NCBI RefSeq assembly: GCF_035593265.1
Contig: NZ_CP141614.1
Location: forward strand, 2,170,001-2,234,000
DNA from: Limnochorda sp. LNt
Lineage (GTDB): Bacteria; Bacillota; Limnochordia; Limnochordales; Geochordaceae
Length of the DNA stretch: 64,000 nucleotides
Direction of reading: 5' to 3'
Shown: one piece after another, positions 32,867 through 43,890 of the stretch
How positions within the stretch are numbered: position 1 is the first letter of the stretch
Layout: each line of letters opens with the position of its first letter
Notes under the pieces: model-generated
What the model was told of the DNA's origin: nothing
The model's input: the letters and a program-made list of their open reading frames with translations, nothing else
Databases searched by the model: none
Position numbers and translations under genes: made by a program

Positions 32867-32876
32867 GGTGGTGTCC

Positions 32877-33173
32877 ATGAAGGTCGTCTACGTCTCCGCG
32901 CTGAAGGCCCGGCTAAGCGAGTTCCTGCGGCTGGTGAAGAGGGGCGAGACGGTCCTCGTCACGGAGCGGGGTCGGCCGGTGGCGATGCTCACCCCGGTGA
33001 CCGAGCACCAGCCGCTCGGCGAGGATCCTCGCCTGCGAGCCCTGCTCGAGTCGGGCCTCGTCCGTCCCCCCCAGGCGCCTCTTCCTGAAGATTTCCTGGA
33101 CCGACCCCGGCCGGCTGACCCTGAAGGACGACTGCTCGCCGCCCTGCTGGAGGAGCGGTCGGAAGGGCGATGA
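32877..33173 (+). CDS. Phd/YefM-type antitoxin
   Basis: A 98-residue protein. The first 50 residues fit the Phd/YefM DNA-binding fold (VSALKARLSEFLRLVKRGET, then VLVTERGRPVAMLTPV). The charged, Pro-rich tail would cap the toxin. The ATG at 32877 has AGGTGG six bases upstream; an in-frame GTG nine bases earlier is possible. Its TGA overlaps the ATG of the PIN gene, giving a standard two-gene toxin-antitoxin operon under the promoter at 32831-32858. Confidence 0.9.
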   Translation: MKVVYVSALKARLSEFLRLVKRGETVLVTERGRPVAMLTPVTEHQPLGEDPRLRALLESGLVRPPQAPLPEDFLDRPRPADPEGRLLAALLEERSEGR

Positions 33174-33598
33174 GGTTCTGGGATAGTTCGGGGCTGGTGC
33201 TGCTGCTCGCCGACCAGCCGGGCTCACAACAAGCCAGGCAACTCTACCGAGAAGACCCTGCCATGGTCGTCTGGTGGGGAACCGCCGTCGAGTGTTGGTC
33301 CGCGTTGACACGCCTGCGACGGGACGCGGTGCTCTCTCCGGAAGCAGAAGGCGAAGCGGGAAGGCTCCTGGCCGCGCTCCTGCAAGGTGCTTTCGAGGTG
33401 CAGCCTTCGGAGGAGCTGCGACGTCTGGCCATCCGCCTGCTTCGGGTGCATGCTCTCCGGGCCGCTGACGCTCTCCAGTTAGCAGCGGCGATGACGTGGG
33501 CCGGTGACCCTCCTTCGCCTGGGAGGGAGATGGTGGTGTTCGACCGGCGGCTACGGGAGGCAGCCCACCTCGAGGGGTTTGCGGTAGTGCCCGGTTGA
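33170..33598 (+). CDS. PIN-domain ribonuclease toxin (VapC-like)
   Basis: A 142-residue PIN domain: the first acidic residue is in RFWDSSGLVLLL (Asp near 5), then Glu in WGTAVECWSAL near 41, Asp in LRAADALQLAAAM near 100, and Asp in MVVFDRRLREAA near 124. This is the full acidic set for an active endoribonuclease. The ATG overlaps the antitoxin stop. It is followed within 20 bp by a tRNA-Arg gene on the other strand, with a duplicated tRNA 3' end between them. Confidence 0.9.
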   Translation: MRFWDSSGLVLLLADQPGSQQARQLYREDPAMVVWWGTAVECWSALTRLRRDAVLSPEAEGEAGRLLAALLQGAFEVQPSEELRRLAIRLLRVHALRAADALQLAAAMTWAGDPPSPGREMVVFDRRLREAAHLEGFAVVPG

Positions 33599-34881: not shown

Positions 34882-35955
34882 ATGAAGCGGGCCGTGCTCG
34901 CTGCTGCATTGGTCTGTGCCCTGCTCGCCGCCAGGGAGACGCGGCCGGCCCGGGCCGATGCCCCGGACCCGTCGCCCCTCTCCGTCCTCTATGAGCTGCA
35001 TCGTGCCAGCGGCCCGGCCTACCAGGAGACGGACGGCACCTGGGTCGTCGTCCCCGAGTCGCGCATCGAGTGGGAAGTCGCCTGGCACGTCACCAACCGC
35101 AGCGACAAGGCCCTGTCGGGGATTCGCCTGCGCAACCACTACAGCAGCGAGCTCGACGTCGTGCCTGGCACCTTCAACGGCACCCATGGCCACGTCTCGT
35201 TCGGGCCCGTGGGTGGACCCCACAGCGCCACCGCTGTGGAGTGGCTGGTGGGAGACCTGGCGCCGGGAGCGACGGCGGTGCTGACCTTTCACGTCGCCAC
35301 GGGCCGCAACCCGGCGGGCAAGCAGATGTACGGCGACGAAGGCGAGTACTGCCTCGACTCCGCCCTGACCGTCTGGTGGGGTTCGGGCCGCCAGGGACGC
35401 GAGCACGACGGCAGCATGAGCTTCTCGTGCGTGCGGGTGATCAGCCGGCGCCCCCCGTGGATCCGGGTCGAGGTCTCCAACACCCGCAAGGACTGGCGGC
35501 TGCGCCGCCCCGGTGAGTACGCCTCGATGGCCTTCGAGCTGGGCGTGGCCAGCAACGGCTCCGTGGCGGTGCTCTTCGAGGGGTTCGACGACCTGCACCG
35601 CCCGTCGTCCGGGGCCTGCGCACCCGGGCCGACGCTGCCCGCGTGGTATGCGCGGGGGAGCACCCTGGAGCAGGCGGAGGCGGCGGGCTGGGTCCAGGCC
35701 GACGAGTTCAACCGCCGCTGGGTCTGGCTCGAGGCGTCTCCCACACTCCGCAAGGGCCGCACCCTGACGTTCTGGCAGCGCCTGGCGGTCTCCGAGGGCA
35801 CGCCCTCGTGCGAGTACGAGGACCGCGCGACGGTGGTCTTCATCCTCTCCCGCTTCGGCGGCATGGGCGTGGCGGCCGACACGACGGGCTCGGATGCCTT
35901 GATGCCGCGGCCGGACGACCTGGTCCTGCCGCCAGCGGCGCAGGAGGGGCTGTGA
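34882..35955 (+). CDS. Secreted protein of unknown function, paralogue of the next gene
   Basis: A 357-residue exported protein with a signal peptide (residues 1-26, ending near ARADA). The mature part is beta-rich, with WEVAWHVTNRSDKALSGIRL near 65-85 and a lone Cys pair in YCLDS and FSCVRV. Two segments, NTRKDWRLRRPGEYAS near 203 and the EYEDRATVVFILS end segment near 312, recur in the next protein, which shows the two are related. I recognise no family; an Ig-like or choice-of-anchor-like extracellular fold is likely. The ATG at 34882 precedes the signal peptide. It is the first gene of the envelope operon that ends with a secretin and a barrel, so it is probably a surface or periplasmic component or cargo. 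Confidence 0.7.
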   Translation: MKRAVLAAALVCALLAARETRPARADAPDPSPLSVLYELHRASGPAYQETDGTWVVVPESRIEWEVAWHVTNRSDKALSGIRLRNHYSSELDVVPGTFNGTHGHVSFGPVGGPHSATAVEWLVGDLAPGATAVLTFHVATGRNPAGKQMYGDEGEYCLDSALTVWWGSGRQGREHDGSMSFSCVRVISRRPPWIRVEVSNTRKDWRLRRPGEYASMAFELGVASNGSVAVLFEGFDDLHRPSSGACAPGPTLPAWYARGSTLEQAEAAGWVQADEFNRRWVWLEASPTLRKGRTLTFWQRLAVSEGTPSCEYEDRATVVFILSRFGGMGVAADTTGSDALMPRPDDLVLPPAAQEGL

Positions 35956-36099
35956 GAGGGGGTGGTCGATGCCAGTCGCGAGCGCCCGGACAGGGACGGG
36001 CCGTGAGGCCTGCACCGTGGCCTACCGTGGCCGGTGGCCTGCGGTAACGGTGGGATAGAAGACGACGGGACACATTTCTCGAAAGGGGATCATGCGAGC

Positions 36100-36813
36100 A
36101 TGAAGCGACTGGGATGGCTCCTCGTGTTGGCGGCGCTGCTGCTCTCCGGTGGGATGGCTCTGGCGGCTTCCAACGGCTACCCGCTCCCGCCGGGCGCCAG
36201 CGAGACCAAGGTGTGGGAGCTGCAGGGCAGCACCTGGGTGGGGCTGACGTTCGGCGACCCCAACGGGCCGGCGCGTAGCTGGAACTCCGGGCCTTACAAC
36301 CAGGGCATCACGAACCAGGCCGTCACCGGGTTCCAGTTCACCAACCACGCCTCCGTGGCCCAGTGGGTGGAGTACACCATGAGTGGCACCCGCAAGGACT
36401 GGCGCATCCGCCGGCCCGGCATCTACGCCTCGGACTCCATGACCGGCACCATCAAGAGCAACAACGACGTGGTCATCTCCTTCAGCGGCTTCGGCCCGCT
36501 GGCATACGAGGCTCCGGGGCAGGGCGTCGACGAGTACATCGAGACCGAGTACGGGTACAGCACCGTGGAGGACCCCAATCTCGTCGTCTGGGTGCCCGCC
36601 GAGGACCTCAATGAGACCAGCATCCTGCTCGAGGACAGCGAGGCCCTCCACTACGGCCAGCAATGGAAGCTGTGGAGCAAGATCAACGTCGGCCCCTCCA
36701 ACTCCTCATCGGAGTACGAGAACGTCGGCACCGTCACCGTCACGCTGACCAACATCAAGCTCTGGATCGATCCGGCGACGGGCTTCTACGCCGACCTGGT
36801 CGGGCCCCGCTGA
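36100..36813 (+). CDS. Secreted protein of unknown function, paralogue of the preceding gene
   Basis: A 237-residue exported protein with a classical signal peptide (MKRLGWLLVLAALLLSGG...ALA, cleaved near 22). The mature domain is beta-rich and contains the shared motifs TRKDWRIRRPGIYAS near 110 and SSEYENVGTVTVTL near 210, aligned in order with those of the preceding protein. It is therefore a shorter single-domain version of the same unknown family. It has no Cys pair and no anchor or C-terminal sorting motif. It lies 144 bp after its paralogue and 125 bp before the next gene, all in one direction. It may be a surface subunit or cargo for the secretin encoded downstream. Confidence 0.7.
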   Translation: MKRLGWLLVLAALLLSGGMALAASNGYPLPPGASETKVWELQGSTWVGLTFGDPNGPARSWNSGPYNQGITNQAVTGFQFTNHASVAQWVEYTMSGTRKDWRIRRPGIYASDSMTGTIKSNNDVVISFSGFGPLAYEAPGQGVDEYIETEYGYSTVEDPNLVVWVPAEDLNETSILLEDSEALHYGQQWKLWSKINVGPSNSSSEYENVGTVTVTLTNIKLWIDPATGFYADLVGPR

Positions 36814-36938
36814 GGCTCATCGACGGTGGCCTGGAAGGGGAGGGCGCTCGCTCTCCCCTTCTCCAGGACGGCAAGGGTCCGGACGTGTCGATGGGATCGG
36901 CCGCGCAGCCGGCCCGCGACCGGAGGGGATGGGAGACC

Positions 36939-38633
36939 ATGAAGGGCCGCATCGGGTGGGGCCGACTCGCCGTGGCGGCGCTTTTGGGGATGGCCTTCGT
37001 CCACGCCGCCGCGCTCCCCGGCTCGGCTGCCTTCTCCTTCAGCCTGACGCCGCTGCTGGTGGAGGTGGAGGGCCGACCCGGCACCTCCCATTCGTTCGAC
37101 ATCTCCCTCGGGTACGAGAGCGACGGCCCGCCGGCCGACTTCGTGGTCAGCGTCGTGCCGATCCGCCAGGATGCGTCGGGCGCCTACCGCCCCGACCCCG
37201 ACGGCAGGGCCAGTGCCCCTTCGGCCGCGGAGTGGATCGAGGTGCAGCCTACGCAGTTCACCATCACGCCGGGCCGATCCCAGGCCATCCAGGGCCGGCT
37301 CACCTTTCCCCGCTCGTTCAGCGGCGGGGCCTATGCGGCGGTCATCATCGAGCTGGTGCCCGAGCCGCCCACCGACGGCGAGCCGGGCCCTCGGCAGGAG
37401 TTCCGCCATCAGTTCGCCGTCATCGTCGAGGCCGTCTCCCGGGGGGCCGTGGTGCGGCCCCAGGTGCGCATCGACGGCTTCCGGGTGGCCACGACGGAGC
37501 AGCGAGGCTTCGAGCAGTACCGGGCGCGCTACGGCCCCCAGGCGGTCGTCTTCCTGACGGACGTGGTCAACGAGGGCAACGTCCACGCGCTGGTCTCCGG
37601 GACGCTCAGCCTCTGGGACGAGAGCGGGCGCAAGATCCGGGAGTTTCCGCTGGGAGCCGGACGGGGGGCCGTCTTGCCGGGCGCCGCCGTGGCCGTGGGC
37701 TCGCTGCTGCCAGGGGGACTGCCGCCCGGCCGGTACACCGCGCAGGCGGTGATAAACTACGGCGGCTTGCGGCCGGCCATCACCCGGCAGTCCTTCGTCC
37801 TGGGCGGGGATCTCCTGGACAGCCCCCAGGGAGGCCGGGCGGTGCGCATCGACGTGCAGCCCGAGGTGGCGATCTTCGAGCTGGTGCCGGGGGCGAGCCG
37901 CTTCGCGGCCATCCGGGTACGCAACCTGGATCGAGTGCCGGTCACCCTCAGCGGGACCATCCTGCCGCTGGTCTACGACGAAGCGGGCAACCCCAACACG
38001 GAAGCCCTGCCGTCGCCCGTCTCCAACGATGGGTGGCTGACGCTCCGCCCCGAGCGCATCACGGTCGCGCCGGGCCAGGTGCGCAACCTGCAGGTGGCCG
38101 TCCGGACGCCGTCGGACGTGCAGCCCGGCGCCCGCTACGGCCAGGTCCTGCTCCGGGCACTGCCCGAGACCGACGGCAACGAGCCGATGCTGGAGACGGA
38201 CGTCGCCGTGCCCGTGCACACCATCGTGGGCAAGGACCTGCGGATCGAGGGCGTGCTCTCGCCCGTCGAGCTGCTCCCCTCCCCCGACGGCCTCCAGATG
38301 ACGGTGGGCGTCCGCTTCACCAACACGGGCCAGATCCACGTCCTGCCCGCCGGCGAGGTGGTGCTGGAGCGCCAACAGACGCCCGTGGCGGCGGACGGCG
38401 CCGAGTACGTCGGCGAGCCGGTCTGGATCCAGATGGCCCGGCTCCCCATGCCGGCCACCGAGACGCCGGTGCTGCCGGGGGGCACCCGCCTGATGGGGAC
38501 GATGATGGCCATCCCCACGGAGCCGGGGCAGTACCGGGCGAGCGTGCTGGTGCGCGTGACGGGGGGAGCGCCCCTGAGCGTGCAGCGGACCTTCCGGGTC
38601 GCCGACGGCGTGCTGCAGCCGGACGACCCGTAA
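36939..38633 (+). CDS. Secreted multi-domain Ig-like protein (DUF916/WxL-associated-like)
   Basis: A 564-residue protein with a signal peptide (about 1-31). The mature chain holds several Ig-like beta-sandwich domains. The first (32-170) opens with FSLTPLLVEVEGRPGTSHSF and has PTQFTITPGRSQAIQGRLTFP, like the DUF916/peptidoglycan-binding domain of WxL-cluster proteins. A related domain repeats at about 300-430 (VQPEVAIFELVPGASRFAAIRVRN, ITVAPGQVRNLQVAV). There is no C-terminal transmembrane anchor. It probably scaffolds or binds cell-wall or outer-membrane partners. The ATG has GGAGGGGAT and GGGAG upstream. The function is inferred from fold only. Confidence 0.72.
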   Translation: MKGRIGWGRLAVAALLGMAFVHAAALPGSAAFSFSLTPLLVEVEGRPGTSHSFDISLGYESDGPPADFVVSVVPIRQDASGAYRPDPDGRASAPSAAEWIEVQPTQFTITPGRSQAIQGRLTFPRSFSGGAYAAVIIELVPEPPTDGEPGPRQEFRHQFAVIVEAVSRGAVVRPQVRIDGFRVATTEQRGFEQYRARYGPQAVVFLTDVVNEGNVHALVSGTLSLWDESGRKIREFPLGAGRGAVLPGAAVAVGSLLPGGLPPGRYTAQAVINYGGLRPAITRQSFVLGGDLLDSPQGGRAVRIDVQPEVAIFELVPGASRFAAIRVRNLDRVPVTLSGTILPLVYDEAGNPNTEALPSPVSNDGWLTLRPERITVAPGQVRNLQVAVRTPSDVQPGARYGQVLLRALPETDGNEPMLETDVAVPVHTIVGKDLRIEGVLSPVELLPSPDGLQMTVGVRFTNTGQIHVLPAGEVVLERQQTPVAADGAEYVGEPVWIQMARLPMPATETPVLPGGTRLMGTMMAIPTEPGQYRASVLVRVTGGAPLSVQRTFRVADGVLQPDDP

Positions 38634-38705
38634 CGGGGTCCTCCAAAATGGAGTCTGCATCGCGAGAAGAGGGGGCGCCAGCCCCCTGACATCGAGAGCG
38701 GGGAT

Positions 38706-40025
38706 ATGGCCGTGAAGCATGGAGCGACGGGCGTCGGGTCGACGGGGCGGCGGCTCGGGTGGGTGGCCGCCGGCGTGGCGCTGGCCGCCTGGTGCCTCCT
38801 CGCAGCGGCCCCGGCGGCCTCGGCAGGCGGCCTCCAACGGGAGACGGGCCCGCCGGAGATGGCGTCCACGACCGGCGGGGCGTCTGCGGCCAGCCAGCCT
38901 CTCATCTCCAACGTCTTCGTCGAGACCTTCATCACCCAGGCGCTGCAGGACATCGGGATGCAGGCCGGCGTCAACATCCTGGTGGAGCCCGGGGTGCAGG
39001 GATTCGTCACGCTGGAGCTGCAGGACGTCCCCCTGGAGCGGGCGCTGCGGATGGTGCTGGCGGGCGGCGGGTACGGCTTCGTGCGGCTGGACGACCGGAC
39101 CTACCTGGTGGGGCGCGGCGATCGGGAGAGCCCCAACTTCCACGTCCTCACCCAGACCCGGCCGGTGCGATTCAGTTACGTCAAGGCCGAGCAGGCCCGG
39201 CGCCTGATGCCCGAGTACTACGCGCCCTACGTGCGCTTCGACGCCGAGACCAACACGGCCCTGGTGACGGCGCCGCCGGAGCTGCTGGCCCGCATCGTGG
39301 CCGACCTGCAGATGGTGGACCGGCAGGCACCCCAGGTGGTCATCGAGGCCATCGTGACCGAGGTGTCGGAGGATGCGCGCCGGCAACTGGGGCTCGACTG
39401 GGAGTGGACCTCCCGCTCGACGCCTCCCGACGTGGTCGCCTACGACCCCATGGAGGGCGTGCTGAGCGCCGTGGTGGGGACGCCCTTCGGCAAGCTCATG
39501 GCCGACCTCAAGCTCCTCGTGGATCAGGGCAAGGCCTCCATCCGGGCCAATCCGCGCATCACCGTCGTCAACGGCGCCAGCGCCTCCATCTTCGTCGGCC
39601 AGGACCGCTACATCAAGATCGAGACCGAGTCCGGCTCGACCACCTTCACCCGCCTGGAGGCCATCAAGGCGGGCGTGAGCCTCAACATCACCCCCTGGAT
39701 CGCCGAGTCCGGCGAGGTGACGCTGACGGTCAAGCCCACCGTCACCGACGTCACCGAGCAGATGAGCGACGGGCTGCCGGTGGTGAGCCGCCGCGAGGTG
39801 TCGACCACCGTGCGGGTGCCGAACGGCCAGACCCTGGCGCTGGGAGGTCTGGTGCAGGAGAGCCGCGAGGACGTCACGGCCTCCGTCCCGGTGCTGGGGG
39901 ACCTCCCGGTGCTGCGGCACCTGTTTTGGTCGAGTCGCTCCCAGCAGAGCCGCTCGGAGGTGATCGTGCTGATCACGCCCCACGTGTTGCCTCCTGCGAC
40001 ACAGGCGGCACCGGCCAGGCCGTGA
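38706..40025 (+). CDS. Secretin-family outer-membrane channel protein (GspD/PilQ superfamily)
   Basis: A 439-residue protein with a signal peptide (about 15-41). It has an STN/N0-like region (QALQDIGMQAGVNILVEPGV near 80, LELQDVPLERALRMVLAGGG near 105), an N1/N3-like domain (160-210) and a full secretin C-domain (about 215-430). The diagnostic VPNGQTLALGGLVQESRED and VPVLGDLPVLRHLFWSS motifs are near residues 372-410. Secretins form multimeric channels in an outer membrane, so this is strong evidence for a diderm envelope. No pilus or type II secretion ATPase, prepilin or platform protein is nearby. Within this operon it may export or anchor the secreted proteins encoded upstream. Confidence 0.92.
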   Translation: MAVKHGATGVGSTGRRLGWVAAGVALAAWCLLAAAPAASAGGLQRETGPPEMASTTGGASAASQPLISNVFVETFITQALQDIGMQAGVNILVEPGVQGFVTLELQDVPLERALRMVLAGGGYGFVRLDDRTYLVGRGDRESPNFHVLTQTRPVRFSYVKAEQARRLMPEYYAPYVRFDAETNTALVTAPPELLARIVADLQMVDRQAPQVVIEAIVTEVSEDARRQLGLDWEWTSRSTPPDVVAYDPMEGVLSAVVGTPFGKLMADLKLLVDQGKASIRANPRITVVNGASASIFVGQDRYIKIETESGSTTFTRLEAIKAGVSLNITPWIAESGEVTLTVKPTVTDVTEQMSDGLPVVSRREVSTTVRVPNGQTLALGGLVQESREDVTASVPVLGDLPVLRHLFWSSRSQQSRSEVIVLITPHVLPPATQAAPARP

Positions 40026-40068
40026 AGCCAAGGGCCGGTGTCGCACCCGACCCGGAAGGAGCGTACCG

Positions 40069-40968
40069 ATGCGCGTCGACCTTCGCGTGCGATCCCTTGG
40101 GATGCGGGCCGTCGCCGCCGCGTTGCTCCCCTCGCTGCTGGGGGTGGCGGGCGCCGCATGGGTCATGGAGACGGCCACCGACCGTTGGGCCCTCGCCGCG
40201 GAGCCGGCGAAGGCCGCCGACGCCCTGGACGCCTTGCTCGTCTTTCCCGACGTCACGGGGATGACGGGCCTGCCCGATGGGGCCTGGCTCAACCCCGCGG
40301 CCGCCACCGGCCTCGAGCGGGCCGTCGTCTCCGTGTCGATGGTGACCGGCGGGTCGTCCCCTGCCGGCGCCGACCCCGTCTACGCCGTCGCCGTGCTCGA
40401 ACCGGGCGGGCCGCTGGCCGGCGGCTTCACGGGCAGCTACGGGCGCTCGCCGGTAGCCGCCGAGTGGGAGGTGGCCTACGCCGTGGCCGGGCGTGTCGCG
40501 CCGCTGTCGGTCGGCGGGCGGGTGCGCCTGCAGCGCGCCGTGCTCGGGCCGGGCGACTACCGGGACCGCTGGAGCGCGGACGCCGGGCTGGTGTGGGAGC
40601 TCACCCGAGGCCTGGCACTGGGCGCCGCGGCCGACCACGTGGCGCTGGCGGCGCCGCGCCGCAGGCGAGCGCCCGAGCTGGCACGCGGGCCTGGGGCTGA
40701 GGCTGCCGGGGGCCCGGGCTCGGCGGGGGTGCTCGGCGTCCATCGTCCGGCCGCTGAGGCGAGCGGCCTGGTGGCGTACGCGGGAGCGCTGCTGCGGCTG
40801 GGCCGGTATCTGAGCCTGGCCGGGACCTACGTGCGCCCCGCAGCCGGCGACGCGGACGCGACGGGGCGCTGGTCGGCCGGGGCTCGCCTCGAGGCGGGCC
40901 GCCTCGCCGTCGAGGCCGCCTGGCGGTCCGATGGGCGTCACCGTCTGGGGGCGAGCGTCGGCTTCTAG
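40069..40968 (+). CDS. Probable outer-membrane beta-barrel protein
   Basis: A 299-residue protein with an N-terminal hydrophobic segment (about 10-33) and a body of alternating-residue strands such as GGFTGSYGRSPVAAEWEVAY and SLAGTYVRPAAG. It ends RLGASVGF, with terminal Phe as in BAM-assembled barrels. NPAAATGLERAVVSVS near 75 recalls the NPAGLA start of PorV-like barrels. Internal Ala/Gly/Arg-rich loops (about 200-240) look poorly conserved. It is the last gene of the envelope operon, 43 bp after the secretin gene; it may partner the secretin in the outer membrane. Its stop overlaps the convergent response-regulator stop by 4 bp. Confidence 0.65.
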   Translation: MRVDLRVRSLGMRAVAAALLPSLLGVAGAAWVMETATDRWALAAEPAKAADALDALLVFPDVTGMTGLPDGAWLNPAAATGLERAVVSVSMVTGGSSPAGADPVYAVAVLEPGGPLAGGFTGSYGRSPVAAEWEVAYAVAGRVAPLSVGGRVRLQRAVLGPGDYRDRWSADAGLVWELTRGLALGAAADHVALAAPRRRRAPELARGPGAEAAGGPGSAGVLGVHRPAAEASGLVAYAGALLRLGRYLSLAGTYVRPAAGDADATGRWSAGARLEAGRLAVEAAWRSDGRHRLGASVGF

Positions 40969-41651
40969 TCGGGCCGGCCCGCTGCCCCCTCTTGCGACAT
41001 CCCCAGGCGCACGGCCAGCAAGGCGGCCTGGGTGCGGTCCTGGACGTTGAGCTTCTGCAAGATGTGGGAGATGTGCGCTTTGACGGTGCGCACCGTAGAG
41101 TGCAGGCGAGAGGCGATCTCCTTGTTGCTCAGGCCTTGTGACAGCAGGGCCAGGACCTCACGCTCCCGAGGTGTGAGGGTGGGCGAGGGCCTCGCGTCGC
41201 TCGCCCACAGCAGCCGGCGCAGGAGCCCGGGCGCCACGGACGGCGCCAGGTAGGTCAGACCCTGGCTCAACGCCATGACGGCCTCCTGGATGTGGCGGGC
41301 CACGTGCTCCTTGCGCAGGTACCCCCATGCTCCGCTGCGCAGCGCCTCGAGGGCGTAGGGATCCTCCGGGAGGACGCTCACCACCAGCACCTTGAGGGCG
41401 GGGTGCCGCTCCACCAGGGCCCGGGTCAGCTGCAGGCCGTCTGCGTCGCCCATCTGTACATCCACCAGTGCCAGCTCGGGGCGGGAGTCCTCGGCCTGCT
41501 GCAAGGCGTCGTGGGACCCCGCCGCCTCGGTTACGACGTCGACGCCGTCCACGGCTTCCACCAGGCTGCGCAAGGCGTAGCGGGCCAGCGGATCGTCGTC
41601 CACGATCATCACGCGGGTTCGCCGGACCCCGAGCTCGTTGGCGTCGCCCAT
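40965..41651 (-). CDS. NarL/FixJ-family response regulator
   Basis: A 228-residue response regulator. The receiver domain (about 12-130) has the acidic pocket IVDDD near 16-20, phosphoacceptor Asp64 in LALVDVQM and the conserved Lys in GYLRKEHV near 113. The LuxR-type helix-turn-helix (about 160-222) has LTPREREVLALLSQGLSNKEIA and VKAHISHILQKL. It should bind DNA as a dimer when phosphorylated. Its gene overlaps the end of the kinase gene by 43 bp, so kinase and regulator are co-translated. It converges on the envelope operon and may control it, but no direct evidence exists. Confidence 0.94.
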   Translation of the reverse strand: MGDANELGVRRTRVMIVDDDPLARYALRSLVEAVDGVDVVTEAAGSHDALQQAEDSRPELALVDVQMGDADGLQLTRALVERHPALKVLVVSVLPEDPYALEALRSGAWGYLRKEHVARHIQEAVMALSQGLTYLAPSVAPGLLRRLLWASDARPSPTLTPREREVLALLSQGLSNKEIASRLHSTVRTVKAHISHILQKLNVQDRTQAALLAVRLGMSQEGAAGRPD

Positions 41652-42496
41652 GCTCCCCGCCCCTCTCCGGCCACGTCCACCGTCGGTGGCGGTCCGTCCG
41701 CCGCTGCCGTCTGCTCGGAGGGGGCGGGCAACAGCACCGTCGCCCTCACGCCTCCGTCGTCGGACTCCAGCATGAGGCGCCCCCCGTGCGCCTCGATGCC
41801 GGTGCGGGCGATGATGAGCCCCAAGCCGTGGCCCGCCTCGCTGCCGCGCGATGGCCCCTCCAGCAGCGCCTCGGGGCGGAGCAGCCGGGTGCAGGTGGAG
41901 TTGTAGATGGTGATGACGGTCTCGCCGCCCCGGGAGGTGACCGCGAAGTCCAACCGGGCGTCACGCCCCCGGCAGGGCTGCGCCGCGTGATAGGCATTGA
42001 AGGCGAGGTTGGTCAGCGACGACTCCAGCAGCACCTCGTCGCCCCAGATGACGGGAGCGGCGTCGTAGCGCTCCGTCACCATCCGGTCACAGCGCCCCAG
42101 GGTGGCGACGGTTCGCACCAGGCGCGCCACCCGCCGCACCACCTCAGCGACGGCCACGGGGCGTCGCCGCAGAGGGGGACGGGCACCGAAGTGAAGGACC
42201 TCCTCCAGCAACGCGCTGGCGCGCGCCAGGGCGGCTTCCAGCACCTGCATGGCGCCGGGGTCCGCCGACCTCCCTTGCGAGGCGGCCGCCGCGGACCTTT
42301 CCAGCGCCACCCGGGCCACGCTCAGCATCGCGTTGACGTCATGCGCCAGGAAGAGTGCGCGCCTGCCCAGTTCCAGCAGGTGCTCCGGTGGCACGTCCCA
42401 TCGAGGGGAGCCATGCCCCAGGGCCGACCCAGGACGACCGCTCGCAGACCCGTCGCCGGCGGCGCGATCGAGAGCGAAGCTGTGCGCCACGCCCAC
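41609..42496 (-). CDS. Cytosolic sensor histidine kinase
   Basis: A 295-residue kinase without membrane segments or a recognisable sensor domain. The phosphoacceptor region is LELGRRALFLAHDVNAMLSV (His near 53). The ATP-binding domain follows, with N-box LESSLTNLAFNAYHAA near 155 and G-box SEAGHGLGLIIART near 218, and an SDDGGVRATVLLP end. A 50-residue Pro/Gly/Thr-rich tail follows, where the regulator gene overlaps. The His box resembles HisKA rather than the HisKA_3 type that usually pairs with LuxR-type regulators, which is slightly unusual. The GTG at 42496 has GGAGGAGGG five bases upstream. The signal is unknown; a soluble input or partner sensor is implied. Confidence 0.88.
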   Translation of the reverse strand: MGVAHSFALDRAAGDGSASGRPGSALGHGSPRWDVPPEHLLELGRRALFLAHDVNAMLSVARVALERSAAAASQGRSADPGAMQVLEAALARASALLEEVLHFGARPPLRRRPVAVAEVVRRVARLVRTVATLGRCDRMVTERYDAAPVIWGDEVLLESSLTNLAFNAYHAAQPCRGRDARLDFAVTSRGGETVITIYNSTCTRLLRPEALLEGPSRGSEAGHGLGLIIARTGIEAHGGRLMLESDDGGVRATVLLPAPSEQTAAADGPPPTVDVAGEGRGAWATPTSSGSGEPA

Positions 42497-43231: not shown

Positions 43232-43645
43232 CTACCCCAGGGAAACCTCCGGATGGCACCGGAAACCCTGGGCAGCGAAATGGGCGTCAAGGGCGAGGGC
43301 GTCCGCAATCCCCTCTTGTCGCATGGCGACGAAGCTCACACAGTCCACCAGGCTCGGCCCCCGACGGCCGGAGCCTAGCAAGGCCTCGACGCCGGCACGG
43401 TGCATCCCCTCGTCCACCCACAGGACGGTGAGGACCGGCTGGACATCGGTGTACAGCGTGCGCACGGCTTCCATCCCAAGCCGCCGCTGGGCAAGGGCGT
43501 ACAGCTCCACCATGACATAGCTGGTCGTCACCAGTTGGGCGTCCGTGGTCAAGAGGTGCTCCCACGTCTGGCGGGTGGCAGCATGCCAGCGGTCGGAAGC
43601 GTCAAGGACAGCCAGCAACCCCGACGTGTCGACGAAGATGCGCAT
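43232..43645 (-). CDS. PIN-domain ribonuclease toxin (VapC-like)
   Basis: A 137-residue PIN domain: RIFVDTSGLLAVLD (Asp near 6), VTTSYVMVELYAL (Glu near 47), GPSLVDCVSFVAM (Asp near 99) and DALALDAHFAAQGF (Asp near 118). All four acidic positions are kept, so it is probably an active ribonuclease. The ATG overlaps the antitoxin TGA by one base (TGATG on the minus strand). It is the second gene of the RHH/PIN operon controlled by the promoter at 43932-43960. Confidence 0.9.
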   Translation of the reverse strand: MRIFVDTSGLLAVLDASDRWHAATRQTWEHLLTTDAQLVTTSYVMVELYALAQRRLGMEAVRTLYTDVQPVLTVLWVDEGMHRAGVEALLGSGRRGPSLVDCVSFVAMRQEGIADALALDAHFAAQGFRCHPEVSLG

Positions 43646-43890
43646 CAGGTAAGGTCCTCCAGCAGGTAACGGTCGTGAGCTTCCGCCAGGTCACCCAGGC
43701 CGGAGCGAAACCGGCCCGCCGCCGCACGAGCCCGCTCGCGCCGAAGCCGCTCCTGCTCTGCCTGCGGGCCTCGCAAGACCGCATCGACCGCTTGCCGGAC
43801 CAACTCCGAGACTGAAACGCCCCGACGCGCGGCAAGCCGCTTTAGGGCGGCAAGCTGCTCTTCGGTCAGTTGCACCTGAATGCGAACCAC
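43645..43890 (-). CDS. Ribbon-helix-helix antitoxin (CopG/VapB-like)
   Basis: An 81-residue protein with an N-terminal ribbon-helix-helix: strand VRIQVQLTEEQ, helix LAALKRLAARRG and helix VSELVRQAVDAVL, residues 2-40. A charged Arg/Glu helix and toxin-binding tail follow. RHH dimers bind palindromes through the ribbon, and a perfect long palindrome sits just upstream (43906-43933). The GTG start follows GGAG at 12 nt. It is co-transcribed with the PIN toxin. Confidence 0.9.
   Translation of the reverse strand: MVRIQVQLTEEQLAALKRLAARRGVSVSELVRQAVDAVLRGPQAEQERLRRERARAAAGRFRSGLGDLAEAHDRYLLEDLT

Follow-up and report, generated by a model that had tools for sequence, protein, structure and literature searches.

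A five-gene envelope operon and its conservation

The window analysed here is the 64,000-nucleotide stretch at positions 2,170,001 to 2,234,000 of contig NZ_CP141614.1 of Limnochorda sp. LNt, whose genome is a single contig of 3,019,339 bases. Open reading frame (ORF) analysis of the window places an operon of five plus-strand genes, in the order g1-g2-g3-g4-g5, at 34882–40968. Gene g1 (34882–35955) encodes an exported protein of 357 residues having an N-terminal part of ~190 residues and a C-terminal domain paralogous to g2 (36100–36813), itself an exported protein of 237 residues in which an N-terminal extension with a VAQW motif is followed by a predicted pilin-fold domain at ~83–218. The exported, immunoglobulin (Ig)-like product of g3 (36939–38633; 564 residues) consists of a two-domain unit resembling WxLIP (DUF916) that has been duplicated in tandem. 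Gene g4 (38706–40025; 439 residues) encodes a secretin, the outer-membrane pore, composed of one N0 (STN) domain, one N1 domain and the core, and g5 (40069, or in-frame ATG 40102, to 40968; 299 or 288 residues) encodes a predicted FadL/PorV-like beta-barrel outer-membrane protein. Sec-type signal sequences are recognised by eye on all five products. A preliminary description, made from the sequence alone, had noted five genes in one direction and two motifs shared by the first two products, and both observations are confirmed by the ORFs and the motif positions: TRKDWR-L/I-RRPG-E/I-YAS occurs in both g1 and g2, as does a second motif in the forms EYE-DRA-TV and EYE-NVG-TV. Limnochordia is described as a diderm class in PMC11456536, and the genome carrying the operon has one Omp85 gene.

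Conservation of the gene order extends over the class and into further lineages of the phylum. Of 72 class genomes, 19 have homologues of g2 and 58 have matches to the g3 profile. By coordinates, a same-strand secretin lies no more than 5 kb from 53 of the 68 g3 matches in the class (expectation value (E) ~4e-43 or better), 36 of these matches lying directly before the secretin and 17 at 2–5 kb after one; the other 15 have none in view. Many of the 15 are close to the ends of contigs in fragmented genomes, and one of them, G004:C1, has its secretin 648 bases away, beyond the 400-base limit set for adjacency. In a phylum sample, 66 of 398 genomes match g3 at E 1e-10, and a secretin is found near g3 in all 20 regions outside the class, these regions being a subset of the long g3 matches, from 19 genomes. 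Of 55 secretin places, 45 have the WxLIP-like g3 directly upstream of the secretin and another 6 have it downstream. The order g1-g2-g3-g4 is seen at 23 of the places, 17 of which continue with g5. These counts are not unbiased rates, since the set takes in places at contig ends and g3 itself was the reason for fetching 20 of its members. At places fetched for the secretin or g2, g3 is in view in 31 of 35. A chance neighbourhood is rejected by the g3-secretin linkage and by the single, fully supported clade formed by the secretins (see below). In a test of 39 genomes, Omp85 is present in all 26 that have the system as opposed to 1 of 13 phylum genomes lacking a g3 match, and the system thus tracks the outer membrane.

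Two branches of the system can be distinguished. Type A, to which the window belongs, has g1-g2 and the FadL/PorV-like g5, whereas in type B one to three small exported proteins, termed S, replace g1-g2, and a different protein, g5B, follows the secretin. Genes g2 and g5B never occur together (0 of 55 places; g5B is missing from all 27 that carry g2), and an S protein is present at 19 of 21 g5B/secretin-like places. At some type B loci g3 is downstream, flanked by several S-like genes. A tandem duplicate of the operon is seen at L103:2599-14183 (UBA1393) and also at L126 (G241), with the second copy lacking g1 and having a short or divergent secretin (340 and 363 residues).

Secretin g4 and the machinery of other secretin systems

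Matches of g4 to the Pfam families STN, Secretin_N and Secretin (core E 9.3e-45) bear out its earlier description as a full secretin, if a small one. It falls below the curated cut-offs of every subtype listed (GspD, PilQ, YscC and MshL), scoring 167.7 bits against a cut-off of 284.35 for PilQ and 174.9 against 351.35 for GspD; the top PDB match of its family profile is the PilQ structure 4av2 (E 7.6e-55). Secretin PF00263 is found at one place in the whole genome. The preliminary description had also remarked on the lack of ATPases, platform proteins and prepilins in the operon, and for the first two this extends to the whole genome. The platform family T2SSF (PF00482) is absent from the entire single-contig genome in a search that detects 13 of 14 controls, and the ATPase family T2SSE (PF00437) has no match above its curated cut-off genome-wide and one below it (E 9.4e-4). 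Usher (PF00577) is found in 0 of 72 class genomes, with the E. coli control detected. With T2SSF absent, T2SSE below cut-off and no usher, the genome offers g4 no type IV pilus, type II system or chaperone-usher pathway that can be recognised as such, prepilin families not having been searched for. T2SSF is missing from 19 of the 72 class genomes, and 14 of these 19 carry a long g3; the system therefore does not depend on that platform.

A secretin tree was built after leaving out rows shorter than 300 residues or with E >1e-20, as well as duplicate loci. All 53 operon-type secretins fall in one clade with support of 100/100. The division into two branches recurs inside this clade, where type A accounts for 31 rows (95/94) and type B, with weak support, for 21 (94/47). 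Opposite to it are 23 other secretins, 21 labelled type IV pilus-like and two beside RHS genes, the former label being the author's for loci fetched for other secretins and including one (L151, G059) from a genome without T2SSF. The tree is rooted at its midpoint, and L133_5 and other long branches are unsurely placed. Identity of g4 with the pilus secretin PilQ is rejected, as there is no T2SSF in the genome and the operon clade stands apart from the remaining secretins of the class. Because gene order is conserved and the secretin is not PilQ, the proposal in the preliminary description of a dedicated outer-membrane export or surface-assembly system has good support from the genomes.

The operon might instead be the remnant or a divergent form of a type IV pilus or type II system, having its platform and ATPase elsewhere or too divergent to recognise. 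The secretin core is homologous to those of PilQ and GspD, its nearest relatives in the PDB, and the sub-threshold T2SSE match could be taken in the same sense. However, T2SSF is lacking both here and in the relative G065, a single contig of 3.8 Mb with two such operons, and unlike PilQ and GspD, g4 has no platform or ATPase, is reduced to a minimal N0-N1, and forms its own clade with unrelated partners. A remnant of this kind is thus very improbable.

Two further secretins in G065, which also lacks T2SSF, each lie beside a giant RHS/teneurin-like protein (L138:3081-9081 and L139:8005-14387; RHS proteins of 1575 and 1295 residues, RHS_repeat E 2.9e-158 and 3e-167). Export of RHS proteins through a secretin is possible in this genome.

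Families and predicted folds of the partner proteins

The paralogy of the two exported proteins g1 and g2, also claimed in the preliminary description, is far above chance: they are 34% identical (tblastn, E 8.2e-18), and their profiles align over 134 columns with E 7e-30 (hhalign). The VAQW-like extension ahead of the g2 domain is kept in 11 of 11 aligned homologues. It is lacking in g1, since the shared domain begins after the VAQ of g2, and the domain of g1 instead follows an unrelated N-terminal part. A one-domain g2 beside a two-domain g1 resembles, by analogy, the division into shaft and tip subunits exemplified by FimA and FimH. Neither g1, g2 nor the S proteins match a significant Pfam family, no WxL Pfam match is found in g1, g2 or 11 S proteins, and the g2 and S profiles have no sequence match in the PDB. 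A scan of the genome contigs with g2 alone finds nothing, and with a five-row alignment it finds four loci. Kinship between g2 and the S proteins is suggestive only, because their match (hhalign probability 89, E 2.3e-6) covers just 32 columns.

Structure models were prepared with AlphaFold2 (AF2) for g2, from nine sequences, and for g5, from four. The g2 model has a predicted local distance difference test (pLDDT) score of 72.9 and a predicted template modelling (pTM) score of 0.56, the pLDDT being 83–91 for blocks of ten residues between 91 and 210. In VIA-align the archaic pilin CsuA/B leads, with 7zl4_B giving the highest Z score (Z 9.4, root mean square deviation (rmsd) 5.9, 124 residues aligned) and 6fm5 the tighter fit (Z 9.1, rmsd 2.7, 116 aligned), and is followed by FimG, the CS17 and CfaB pilins, the FimH pilin domain and others. 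Chaperone-usher subunits make up 48 of 50 VIA-align rows in a by-eye count that includes redundant entries, a proportion that overstates the agreement because this family has many PDB entries. The top Foldseek match is CfaB (E 1.6e-3). The C-terminal domain of g2 is predicted, with moderate confidence, to have the chaperone-usher pilin fold. Of the two roles suggested earlier for the paralogues, this favours that of cargo, here as subunits; nothing supports that of pilot subunits. The Foldseek neighbours also include 7ueg (Pyrobaculum bundling pili) and 9h8b (cannula), a likeness to TasA/TapA fibres and archaeal bundling pili. These differ from the operon in being monoderm or archaeal and having no outer-membrane pore, and no sequence match between them and the operon was found. 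Bacillus TapA is reported (PMC10151520) as a chaperone acting by strand complementation.

The earlier assignment of g3 as a DUF916-type protein holds for the family and not for the individual protein. WxLIP_PGBD (PF06030, the former DUF916) is matched by 5 of 18 g3 homologues, with a best E of 1.9e-5, whereas the g3 of the window itself has no match to it. The family profile aligns with the solved structure of EfmWxLIP1 (9i1y) at E 1.1e-8 over the first domain and beyond. The two halves of g3 align with each other over 235 columns (E 1.2e-30), and at the sequence level the protein is a tandem duplication of the WxLIP-like unit. According to PMC10599100, a hairpin-loop strand of WxLIP is predicted to fill a gap in WxL and so complete its sandwich; the words 'chaperone', 'donor' and 'pilus' do not occur in the text of that paper. 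By analogy, strand filling of this kind follows the logic of pilus chaperones. The operon resembles the WxL/WxLIP clusters of monoderm Bacillota in that the g3 family is homologous to WxLIP and small exported partner genes adjoin it. It is unlike them in the doubling of the g3 unit, in partners with no WxL domain match, and in the addition of an outer-membrane secretin and a barrel, and no fibre has been proposed for WxL.

Two other loci in the same genome touch on this family. At L110:6739-11368 (~C1:2406738-2411367), two small exported proteins, a WxLIP-like protein of 263 residues (PF06030 E 4.9e-4) and a large protein of 863 residues follow one another, the last having Ig-like, carboxypeptidase-regulatory-like and, by eye, barrel-like parts. 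A CooC_C match at this locus is weak (E 0.012). Relatives occur in G065 and in G060/G061, and L113, L115, L112 and L114 are further loci of this kind; in the relatives the large protein has 706–1080 residues. The order subunit-subunit-chaperone-large pore is that of a chaperone-usher operon, but with no recognised usher, and it suggests that in these bacteria two different routes out through the outer membrane may both employ a WxLIP-like partner. At L111:3233-8557 lies an exported trio of 159, 378 and 1214 residues, part of which weakly matches the g3 profile (E 3.5e-6).

The barrel noted in the preliminary description is predicted for g5 with moderate confidence. In the AF2 model (pLDDT 60.7, pTM 0.62) the barrel is built of 12 strands, and two short helices lie close to an NPAA motif; in VIA-align the model is level between FadL (3pgr; Z 20.8, rmsd 3.5, 216 aligned) and PorV (8gl6_F; Z 20.1, rmsd 2.9, 218 aligned), with a top Foldseek match to 6h3i_F of the type 9 translocon (E 8.5e-4). 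Gene g5 thus likely encodes an outer-membrane protein of FadL/PorV fold, sharing the predicted fold and the NPA motif region with this family. It differs in sequence, being just 11–17% identical to the listed FadL/PorV rows, and its profile has no significant sequence match in the PDB. Comparison of the g5 and g5B families shows no relation between them (hhalign probability 6.7). Protein g5B looks instead like a paralogue of the secretin that has decayed and carries a barrel-like tail: the g5B and secretin families align over 188 columns (hhalign probability 95, E 3.2e-8), one g5B member retains an STN domain (E 3.3e-6), and two others are matched by the secretin profile (3e-30 and 7e-19). Examples adjoining an intact secretin in type B clusters are found at L095:9318-10535, L090:6784-8469, L133, L134 and elsewhere.

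Next to g5, and convergent with it, is a gene for a NarL-type response regulator (40965–41651, minus strand; Response_reg and GerE), a possible regulator of the operon, followed by one for a histidine-kinase-like protein (41609–42496, minus strand, start uncertain, alternatively 42394; HATPase_c PF02518 E 3.2e-6) that may be its partner. At 6 of the 55 places, every one of them in Limnochordales, a regulator related to the NarL-type one lies within ~7 genes of the secretin. These neighbours, together with the fact that the closest structural neighbours of g5 are channels for hydrophobic compounds, would fit a device for uptake or sensing, in which g5 and g4 import or sense a compound and g1, g2 and g3 are surface receptors under the two-component system. 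The FadL-like pore, however, is not a constant part of the system, because type B has the secretin-derived g5B in its place and only g3 and the secretin are constant; such a device is improbable. Two VapBC-like antitoxin/PIN-toxin pairs, recognised by eye, flank the operon at 32868–33598 and 43232–43890.

A possible chaperone-secretin mechanism

The operon is real and conserved and is not a member of any system tested, and that it represents a distinct system is held with high confidence. Its parts individually belong to known families or resemble them. A literature search, with most subscription journals and all bioRxiv preprints outside its coverage, found no paper in which a secretin of this kind is linked, in diderm Bacillota, with WxLIP or with subunits of pilin fold.

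From the computed gene set, linkage and families, the absence of usher and T2SSF, and the predicted folds of g2 and g5, we infer a 'chaperone-secretin' fibre mechanism, to which a probability of about 0.48 is assigned. In the periplasm, the double WxLIP-like Ig protein g3 would lend a beta-strand to the open sandwich of g2 and g1, keeping both folded and soluble. The subunits would then pass singly and in succession through secretin g4, which would replace the usher, and outside the cell the N-terminal extension of one g2 would displace the lent strand in the next by donor-strand exchange, giving a fibre. In such a fibre g2 would be the main subunit, the two-domain g1 would sit at the tip, and the PorV/FadL-like barrel g5 would dock or anchor the fibre at the surface. 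In chaperone-usher pili, folding drives strand exchange and there is no ATPase. If folding likewise drove the exchange here, no ATPase, platform or prepilin peptidase would be needed, and with g1 and g2 as subunits and g3 lending a strand, the absent motors would be expected rather than puzzling. The strand-donation link and the pilin fold are additions of this analysis to the preliminary description.

The closest parallel is with archaic and alternate chaperone-usher pili (Csu, CupE and CFA/I), which share with the operon the pilin fold predicted for g2, an Ig-like periplasmic partner, two-domain and one-domain subunits, and the lack of an ATPase. In contrast to them, the operon system has a secretin pore instead of an usher, and its partner g3 is by family WxLIP-like and not PapD-like.

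Several points weigh against the fibre mechanism. The g2 model is built on few sequences, and its Z of 9 is slightly above the 7–8 typical of unmatched models, for which reason the pilin fold counts as moderate evidence. Alternating hydrophobic residues in the g2 extension give best windows ranking 1 to 35 of 204–243, about the expectation for the best of 11 windows. The pilus chaperone family PF00345 has no Pfam match at E 0.1 among the 18 g3 homologues. To our knowledge, every secretin machine works with an inner-membrane ATPase and platform, and we know of no secretin through which fibres pass unless it has a partner in the inner membrane. The weakest steps of the scheme are polymerisation and the passage through the secretin, and both go beyond what a sequence can reveal.

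The main rival dispenses with polymerisation: WxL-like g1 and g2 would be stabilised by g3, exported via g4 and held by g5 on the outer membrane, where they would form an adhesive layer or a coat. PorV receives cargo in the type 9 system, and the resemblance of g5 to PorV counts for such a display, as does the match of the g3 family to WxLIP. It also fits the WxL/WxLIP paradigm, in which the WxL protein is anchored and not polymerised (PMC10599100). Against it stand the predicted pilin fold of g2, the lack of a WxL Pfam match in g2 or the S proteins, and the pairing of a two-domain g1 with a single-domain g2, which resembles tip and shaft. Display without polymerisation is judged unlikely.

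The broadest form of the fibre reading, a new class of outer-membrane export machine that combines donor-strand fibres, a dedicated secretin and a double WxLIP chaperone across diderm Bacillota and is possibly ancestral to the phylum, is a doubtful extension. If it is true, the operon would provide a third route for fibres across the outer membrane, and the WxL/WxLIP system of monoderms and the chaperone-usher pili of Gram-negative bacteria would be two ends of one strand-donation principle. The WxL system may then be what remained after loss of the outer membrane, and the fate of a surface assembly in a lineage that loses its outer membrane would become testable. Unexplained filamentous structures of the cell envelope are reported for two cultured Limnochordia in PMC11456536, and the operon described here is a candidate source of them.

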